A stretch of DNA of 58,758 bases from Hylemonella gracilis ATCC 19624 (GTDB lineage: Bacteria > Pseudomonadota > Gammaproteobacteria > Burkholderiales > Burkholderiaceae_C): positions 1 to 58,758 of the forward strand of contig NZ_AEGR01000055.1 of assembly GCF_000211835.1 (NCBI RefSeq). The letters run 5' to 3'. This document shows positions 7,324 through 9,113 of this stretch, piece after piece; position 1 is the first letter of the stretch; each line of letters begins with the position of its first letter. The position numbers were made by a program, and so were the translations under genes. Below the pieces are notes generated by a model, which saw nothing but the letters and a program-made list of their open reading frames with translations, searched no databases and was not told the origin of the DNA.

Positions 7324-7752
7324 TTAGAAGGGCTTGACCACCACCAGCACCACGGCCGTCAGCAACAGCAGCACGGGGAGTTCGTTGAACCAGCGGTACC
7401 AGACATGGCTGCGCTGGTTTTCACCCCGGTGGAACTTGCGCAGAAGCACGCCGCAGGCGTGGTGATACCCGAGCACCAGCAGCACGACCGTGAGCTTGGC
7501 ATGCATCCAGGCATTGCCCGGCCCCTTGCCGATGCCGTAGCCCAGCCACAGCCACAGGCCGAAGACCAGGGCCGGCACGGCCAGCATCGTGGTGAAACGC
7601 AGCAGCTTGTCCGCCATCATCAGCAGACGATCCCGCTCGGCCTGCGAATTCGCGGGCACTTGCGCGAGATTGACGAAGATGCGGGGCAGGTAGAACAGCC
7701 CGGCGAACCAGGCGGCGATGAAGACGATGTGGAGCGCTTTGATCCAGAGCAT
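7324..7752 (-). CDS. hemJ: Protoporphyrinogen IX oxidase HemJ
   Basis: This 142-residue membrane protein matches HemJ, which oxidises protoporphyrinogen IX to protoporphyrin IX in heme synthesis. It has about four membrane helices. The N-terminal helix LWIKALHIVFIAAWFAGLFY carries the conserved His, and AWMHAKLTVVLLVLGYHH carries the conserved Lys. The start at 7752 (MLWIKALH) matches the family length; longer in-frame starts run back through the sRNA terminator and were rejected. It faces hemB, another heme gene, across a 359-base intergenic region. CopD-family annotation is the main alternative. Confidence 0.9.
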   Translation of the reverse strand: MLWIKALHIVFIAAWFAGLFYLPRIFVNLAQVPANSQAERDRLLMMADKLLRFTTMLAVPALVFGLWLWLGYGIGKGPGNAWMHAKLTVVLLVLGYHHACGVLLRKFHRGENQRSHVWYRWFNELPVLLLLTAVVLVVVKPF

Positions 7753-7836
7753 GATTCCAGTCCATTTGGGGCACCAGCCGCATCGCGGCTCGCAGCACGA
7801 GGCTAACTGTGCCATCGGCAACGTGATGCCGGAGCT

Positions 7837-7865
7837 AAAAAAAAACCCCGGCACAAGCCGGGGTT
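7837..7865 (-). terminator. Rho-independent terminator of the candidate sRNA
   Basis: On the minus strand AACCCCGGC-TTGT-GCCGGGG is followed by nine consecutive T (7845-7837). The stem is seven G/C pairs, extended by two A-T pairs, with a four-base loop. This is one of the clearest intrinsic terminators in the window. Confidence 0.9.
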
Positions 7866-7937
7866 GCAAGCCTTTTTTGCTGTCACACATCAAGGCCCCG
7901 CTCAGGGAGGAAAAGCGGGGAGGACGCAAGGTCCTCG
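7837..7937 (-). ncRNA. Candidate small RNA of about 100 nt between hemJ and hemB
   Basis: The predicted transcript starts at or near 7937. It opens with a perfect hairpin GAGGAC-CTTGC-GTCCTC (7936-7920). A second perfect hairpin has stem CCCCGC/GCGGGG (7920-7915 and 7901-7896; one base is shared with the first stem) and a 13-nt loop containing CCTCCC, an anti-Shine-Dalgarno sequence. A single-stranded stretch with an A6 run follows, and the end is a strong intrinsic terminator with nine U. It has its own sigma-70 promoter and no credible reading frame. C-rich hairpin loops of this kind occur in regulatory sRNAs that bind mRNA Shine-Dalgarno regions. The alternative is a transcription-attenuating leader of hemJ, which starts 85 bases beyond the terminator. 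No known RNA family was recognised. Confidence 0.7.
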
Positions 7938-7943
7938 GGCGCT

Positions 7944-7972
7944 AATCTAGCAAAAACGACTACTCAATGCAA
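7944..7972 (-). promoter_or_regulatory. Sigma-70 promoter of the candidate sRNA
   Basis: On the minus strand TTGCAT (7972-7967) and TAGATT (7949-7944) are exactly 17 bases apart. Initiation about seven bases downstream, near 7937, coincides with the first base of the first perfect hairpin, which is the main reason to believe the call. Confidence 0.75.
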
Positions 7973-8036
7973 CAACTGGCTACAGCTTTGTTGCAATTCC
8001 ATGGCCCCGCTGGCTGACAAGCCGACAGGCCGCTGA

Positions 8037-9113
<1,077 letters not shown>

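Follow-up and report, generated by a model that had tools for sequence, protein, structure and literature searches.

The anti-hemB (RF02837) small RNA gene of Hylemonella gracilis and the slot beside engB that its relatives share with ErsA

The anti-hemB RNAs, catalogued in Rfam as RF02837, include ncS04 of Burkholderia cenocepacia, an RNA of 105 nt with mapped ends, the 3′ end by RACE and dRNA-Seq (PMC5688073, Table 1). The discussion of that paper states that ncS04 binds Hfq, and its Table 2 records no significant change in seven conditions, membrane stress not being among them, which gives no support for stress induction. Anti-hemB is further listed in B. pseudomallei (PMC3521395), and a passage of a review has an RNA termed Bc7 co-purifying with Hfq, with hemB as its predicted target (PMC6321483); judging from the hemB link and from Rfam's “Burkholderia RNA 7”, Bc7 is apparently the RF02837 RNA. 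Other CU-rich Shine-Dalgarno binders, at different loci, are CT_433/CT_521 of Bordetella pertussis, as described in PMC12235514, and the same review gives Hfq-assisted blocking of the Shine-Dalgarno sequence as the reported mode of ErsA on algC (PMC6321483). In the open-licence papers searched we found no link of anti-hemB to sigma-E or to ErsA, and likewise neither the covarying 5′ hairpin and the wide gammaproteobacterial range of RF02837-type RNAs described below, nor the polA/engB slot and sigma-E-type promoter shared with ErsA, both of which are lost in most loci of the family studied here.

The window, that is, the whole stretch of DNA analysed (58,758 nt of Hylemonella gracilis ATCC 19624, contig NZ_AEGR01000055.1), carries between hemJ and hemB a locus that we confirm as an RF02837 sRNA gene, real but not new. 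The RF02837 model matches the minus strand at 7921–7837 over model positions 1–81 of 81 with 63.7 bits (cut-off 49.5), this being the single match in its own genome, and the hemB neighbour that goes with the family is present, starting divergently at 8112. R1, a covariance model from our alignment A1, matches 7938–7837, the window itself being one of R1's 28 rows. A sequence-only reading of this DNA had called the RNA unannotated, which the Rfam match corrects; its proposal of an independent sRNA with its own promoter and terminator is supported. The parts are as follows:

7944–7972, minus strand: promoter, TTGCAT at 7972–7967, 17-base spacer, TAGATT at 7949–7944, read from the sequence
7952–7944, minus strand: extended −10 element TGCTAGATT (TG-C-TAGATT), within the promoter
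7837–7937, minus strand: predicted sRNA transcript of about 101 nt, from the RF02837 match, the R1 match and the fold
7920–7936, minus strand: 5′ hairpin H1, GAGGAC-CUUGC-GUCCUC, 15 of its 17 nt beyond the Rfam model
7897–7919, minus strand: hairpin H2 with the UUCCUCCCU loop, anti-Shine-Dalgarno-like, a putative seed, from fold and conservation
7870–7896, minus strand: hairpin H3, GCCUU...AAGGC, from fold and two-sided changes
7837–7865, minus strand: intrinsic terminator, 9-bp stem and nine-U run, from sequence, fold and two-sided changes
8112–9113, plus strand: hemB, divergent neighbour (Pfam ALAD, E 6e-139)
7324–7752, minus strand: hemJ, downstream neighbour (Pfam PF03653, UPF0093, E 1.8e-41)

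On direct reading all the elements claimed earlier are present, namely TTGCAT-17-TAGATT, the GAGGAC/GTCCTC hairpin, the hairpin with the CCTCCC loop and the nine-U terminator; the last reads AACCCCGGC-TTGT-GCCGGGGTT, and its nine-T run starts inside the 3′ arm. The predicted 101-nt RNA (7937–7837) folds into four stem-loops at −47.7 kcal/mol, a z of −4.88 against 200 dinucleotide shuffles (−31.7 ± 3.3), none of which came that low. The three hairpins seen earlier are among them; the third in order, at 7896–7870, had been overlooked, and the CCUCCC loop of H2, taken to be of 13 nt, has 9 nt in the fold and is closed by a 7-bp stem. The statement that there is no reading frame does not hold to the letter, since the hemJ frame stays open backwards across the sRNA as far as a TTG at 7929 (7324–7929, minus strand); it is open in this way in just 10 of the 60 family loci with hemJ, the window counted, so it looks accidental, and we reject a coding frame in the sRNA. 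By our own count the promoter matches the sigma-70 consensus at 7 of 12 positions, and a scan requiring 9/12 did not report it; it becomes convincing only because the extended −10 recurs at the same place in most of the family. Transcription of the sRNA in this organism is a prediction.

Of 149 relatives, 125 have an RF02837 match at E ≤ 0.001, and in 117 the match exceeds the cut-off. The 121 loci analysed are the window and 120 fetched RF02837 matches; they come from 114 genomes (113 besides its own, seven with a second copy) and split into 75 of the window's family (23 of the genus and 52 others) and 46 of other Burkholderiales families. The earlier reading had staked itself on conservation of the stems and the CCTCCC loop in relatives, and both are conserved; CTCCCTGAG, which spans the loop and runs into the 3′ arm of H2, is present in 113 of the 121 loci. 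A1, with its 28 sequences, covers 16 pairs in H2, H3 and the terminator; 11 of these change on both sides, 93.1% of cells are paired, and on each of five measures all 500 shuffles fall short of what is observed. Two-sided changes occur in all 5 modelled pairs of H3 (89.2% of cells paired) and at 5 of 6 of the terminator; the H2 stem is 100% paired across the 28 rows and itself hardly varies. The invariance of the loop in A1 is partly a matter of choice, since 9 of the 28 rows stem from a pattern requiring CTCCCTGAGCGGG; the count of 113 is free of that.

For the alignment and the H1 set, 25 of the 80 loci of a named-genome scan described below were offered, 12 outlying rows were dropped and near-identical rows removed; a usable anchor was present in 107 of the 108 kept rows, and 105 were scored. 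H1 was located by a search of each sequence, so that at least five of the six pairs are common by chance (98 of 105 sequences, with 76 distinct stems among the 98, versus 44% of shuffles), and only six of six is telling (72 of 105 versus 6.5% of shuffles). Over all 121 loci an H1 score of at least 14 is reached by 87% in the genus, 62% in the family and 70% in the order, versus 17%, 18% and 9% of shuffles. RNAalifold lacks H1 under two of three MAFFT settings and has it under global-pair, and R1 treats it as unpaired. By these pair counts H1 covaries strongly though it lies almost wholly beyond the Rfam model, which for that reason seems to be truncated on its 5′ side.

The range of the RNA is far wider than the name “Burkholderia RNA 7” implies: R1 matches 167 of 369 class-level genomes. 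Nine class-level R1 loci were scanned with RF02837, which is over its cut-off at six (L276, L277, L279, L285, L292, L295) and below it at L282, L289 and L302; it also passes at L198 and misses L174, although L174 has the core motif. Some genomes carry the sRNA in tandem, with starts about 140–310 bases apart: two copies each in G017:C43, G122:C12 and G145:C183, and four each in G319:C33 and G427:C8. Second copies distant from hemB are seen in the family genomes G045:C9, G054:C12, G058:C11 and G086:C15. The model of the alphaproteobacterial sRNA ar14 gives weak, sub-threshold matches on the RF02837 site at L289, L277 and L292, near 1503–1617 (25.1–29.5 bits, cut-off 58.8).

The gene neighborhoods fall into distinct configurations. 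In the 75 window-family loci, hemJ follows the sRNA in 60, at a median of 76 bases past the Rfam match, hemB is divergent in 60, one of these farther off, and engB is seen at none. Among the 46 Burkholderiales loci from outside this family hemJ is seen at none; convergent engB lies just downstream in 34 and same-strand engB upstream in 6 more (adjacent in 40 in total), and hemB is divergent upstream in 35. The named-genome scan, which combined a sigma-E motif with the core pattern, gave 80 loci from 120 stretches among the matches listed, including Rhodocyclaceae, Nitrosospira, Sulfuricella, Thauera, Steroidobacteraceae and Thioalkalivibrio; among the matches listed, convergent engB is present at 72, hemB upstream at 54 and polA upstream at 18, polA being recognised by its C-terminal end and tblastn. 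At the class level, where the best matches were taken and no random draw made (30 were fetched, and 27 remained once the own locus, one family locus and one order locus were set aside), polA and/or engB lies within about 1.5 kb at 25 of the 27 best loci, one with both inverted. Outside the window's family engB is mostly the gene that the RNA faces, and behind the RNA stands hemB (Burkholderiales) or polA (gammaproteobacteria). An ORF of 180–226 aa is found between polA and the sRNA in L153 (two such), L191, L198 and L206; by eye, its end resembles a small outer-membrane barrel.

These neighborhoods bear on two functions suggested by the flanking heme genes. A terminating leader, as the sequence-only reading had offered, would set hemJ expression in the window's family by read-through. 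The spacing was given correctly, 84 bases separating the terminator from the hemJ start at 7752; this gap shows, by eye, no obvious hemJ promoter, and hemJ is the usual follower in the family. However, the terminator is strong, with its nine U, the hemJ frame through the RNA is not conserved (10/60), and in the other Burkholderiales families hemJ was seen at none of the 46 loci that carry the RNA, most of which have convergent engB (34). We thus reject a hemJ leader as the family's function; it could be at most an added role in one family, and as such we consider it improbable. Regulation of hemB, by antisense or by pairing, is what the name of RF02837, the prediction for Bc7 (PMC6321483) and the divergent hemB at 35/46 other-family and 60/75 family loci would suggest. 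Against this, the RNA and the hemB coding region do not overlap, complementarity to the hemB start region is like that of shuffles (mean z 0.13, n=95), and polA takes the place of hemB at 18 of the 80 named loci among the matches listed. Accordingly, hemB antisense is rejected, regulation of hemB in any form is very improbable, and the name “anti-hemB” is positional. The start regions of hemJ (mean z −0.17, n=60), engB (0.19, n=34) and a cytochrome gene (0.28, n=31) likewise show no more complementarity than shuffles do, and with shuffle-like values for both hemB and hemJ the earlier appeal to heme genes as the explanation lacks support.

The promoters differ between the same groups. We scored the pair GGAACTT/TCTNA, which we take to be the sigma-E consensus, over 11 positions within the 76 bases that lead up to the start of the Rfam match, and skipped one of the 46 other-family loci with too short an upstream sequence. 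At least 10/11 is reached at 32 of these 45 loci versus 0 of 5700 background windows from the same loci, and at least 9/11 at 38 of 45 versus 1.07% of background. The window's family has scores of at least 10 in 2 of 75 loci and at least 9 in 3 of 75, and the window itself, at 6/11, lacks the sigma-E/sigma-22-type promoter of ErsA. An extended −10 (TGNTANANT) is found instead in 22 of the 23 loci of the genus and 35 of the 52 remaining loci of the family (57/75), and in 0 of 45 of the other Burkholderiales, with background rates of 0.0000, 0.0001 and 0.0036; 43 of the 57, the window included, end 18–26 bases ahead of the Rfam start, and most of the other 14 sit about 10 bases farther upstream, where the 5′ stem is longer. 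Scores of at least 9 recur in 20 of the 27 best class-level loci versus 2.6% of background, here with a slightly wider motif; the 80 named loci are silent on promoter frequency because they were selected with the sigma-E motif. As far as promoter motifs can tell, the sRNA of these relatives would be under the control of sigma-E.

RpoE itself (TIGR02939) is found at E ≤ 1e-40 in 129 of 148 genomes searched, that of H. gracilis included, where it scores 233.9 bits, just below the cut-off of 236.15; RpoE of the window's family (G000:C69:16473-17054 and relatives) mostly scores lower than that of other families. G056 and G073 have RpoE scores among the highest of the family (284.5 and 273.2 bits, exceeded by G006 alone), and their sRNAs are preceded by GGAACCT or GGAACTT (promoter scores 8 and 10), which would suit a joint change of sigma factor and promoter; a counterexample is G043, with a promoter score of 10 and an ordinary RpoE (247 bits). 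When the regions upstream of rpoE in 20 genomes were searched for a promoter of the family's type, nothing usable emerged; by eye, another gene seems to lie close ahead of rpoE in the window's family.

We consider it probable that the locus codes for a trans-acting sRNA that is assisted by Hfq, covers Shine-Dalgarno sites with its loop, and comes from a sigma-E stress locus common to ErsA but is here uncoupled from sigma-E. Such an RNA would be transcribed from about 7937 to 7837; H2 would present UUCCUCCCU (the loop also given as CUCCCUGAG) in a fixed hairpin, the long 3′ U tail would be kept for Hfq, and the loop would pair in trans with G-rich Shine-Dalgarno regions and block translation of several mRNAs. 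Both the CCUCCCU-type loop, conserved and unpaired, and the long U tail fit an Hfq-assisted blocker of this kind. The trans-acting sRNA with a C-rich loop proposed earlier hence remains the best available reading, though the target search gave none: the exact loop complement, TCAGGGAGG-N3-10-ATG, yielded 22 listed sites in six genomes, with no evident common gene in the downstream frames, and the five sites before an ATG in the own genome have no convincing gene behind them. As this search found no target, the blocking step is putative, and so is Hfq binding here. The same outcome, and the flat expression of ncS04 across the seven conditions of Table 2 (PMC5688073), would also suit an sRNA that serves mainly as a decoy for Hfq or another RNA-binding protein and not in mRNA pairing; however, conservation is highest in a part that takes in the unpaired loop (CTCCCTGAG in 113/121) and not just stems and tail, and a decoy strikes us as a poor bet.

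The relatives of the window's RNA and ErsA occupy the same slot and have the same type of promoter. In Pseudomonadaceae-like genomes, found through RsmY (family f209 being judged Pseudomonadaceae from RsmY and RF01719 matches), engB is present at all 12 loci and polA at 11 (not L338); RF01719 (Pseudomon-1/ErsA) fills the polA–engB slot in 5 of the 5 loci scanned, with 120.6–135.6 bits, and a GAACTT-type promoter scores at least 9 at 12/12, a count with no background comparison behind it. The best R1 match lies beside engB at the place of ErsA in 12 of 12 loci and is weak (14.1–17.3 bits, E 0.0009–0.0094); the maximum in 26 control loci is 12.0 bits. Conversely, RF01719 weakly matches the RF02837 site at 3 of 9 class-level R1 loci (26.7–30.3 bits, cut-off 50). 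It gave no match at L307, L320 or L326, and is absent from the matches for window positions 7700–8150 at E up to 5, hence below its gathering cut-off. These cross-matches rest mainly on the terminator and H3, ErsA being without the H2 loop. Of 21 further engB loci near Pseudomonadaceae, 15 of genus g283 and six of other families, R1 matches three at E ≤ 1 (16.2, 12.6 and 10.5 bits), all among the six; in the Pseudomonadaceae-like g283 there are matches at 0/15, and polA was not seen beside engB.

We infer that RF02837 and ErsA probably share an ancestor, and the fuller proposal stands at slightly better than even: RF02837 and RF01719, now two separate families, would be branches of one sRNA gene that has stood beside engB under sigma-E since before the split of Gamma- and Betaproteobacteria, Spot 42 might be a third branch that has fully diverged, and the window's family would show the gene leaving both engB and sigma-E. 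The ancestor would have been a sigma-E-controlled sRNA gene between polA and engB, the slot of ErsA in Pseudomonas; polA would have been replaced by hemB on one side in Burkholderiales, and in the window's family engB by hemJ and the sigma-E promoter by an extended −10, sigma-70-type one, that being the probable direction of the gene-order changes. Given the promoter change, expression in the window's family should no longer follow envelope stress. Alternatively, RF02837 RNAs and ErsA might be unrelated and have arisen separately in a permissive polA–engB spot. Spot 42 of E. coli occupies that slot without significant similarity, ErsA is without the H2 loop, the cross-scores are weak and R1 matches are few near Pseudomonadaceae (3/21), all of which would suit separate origins; against them, the sigma-E-like promoter, the strand relative to engB and the C-rich terminator loop are common to both, and the models match reciprocally, though weakly. 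Separate origins are in our view rather unlikely. If the branching from one gene is true, it offers a natural case of an sRNA switching its regulator with its loop staying fixed.

Compared with the known systems, Spot 42 (spf) of E. coli K-12 (L272) shares the gene order polA > spf > yihA, yihA being engB, but R1 gives the spf locus 10.2 bits (E 0.028), under the control maximum, and RF00021 is not listed for the window; with the slot alone in common and no significant similarity, membership in Spot 42 is rejected. The Betaproteobacteria toxic small RNAs (RF02278, double-hairpin) resemble the window's RNA in a CU-rich loop which PMC5688073 describes as thought to block ribosome binding sites, but the window scores 23.5 bits with that model, below the gathering cut-off of 50. 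With RF02837/ncS04 it shares the whole model over the cut-off, the hemB neighbour, the size, the loop and the U tail, and it differs in its 5′ hairpin beyond the model, its extended −10 promoter and the replacement of engB by hemJ downstream. The sRNA was thus catalogued already, under a name that misleads. ErsA has another 5′ half, no H2 CCUCCCUGAG hairpin, and a length of 132 nt as given in PMC7565897 versus about 101 nt for the window's RNA, and the window, with hemB and hemJ, lacks its polA–engB position. Nonetheless, the RF02837 relatives outside the window's family resemble ErsA in the polA–engB slot, the sigma-E/sigma-22-type promoter and the C-rich terminator loop, and Hfq is a further likeness going by what PMC8575079 and PMC6321483 say of ErsA. 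The ErsA slot and the sigma-E-type promoter lead to the hypothesis that in betaproteobacteria and many gammaproteobacteria these genes code for an sRNA of envelope stress, with an evolutionary contrast in the one family that is mostly without the sigma-E-type promoter.
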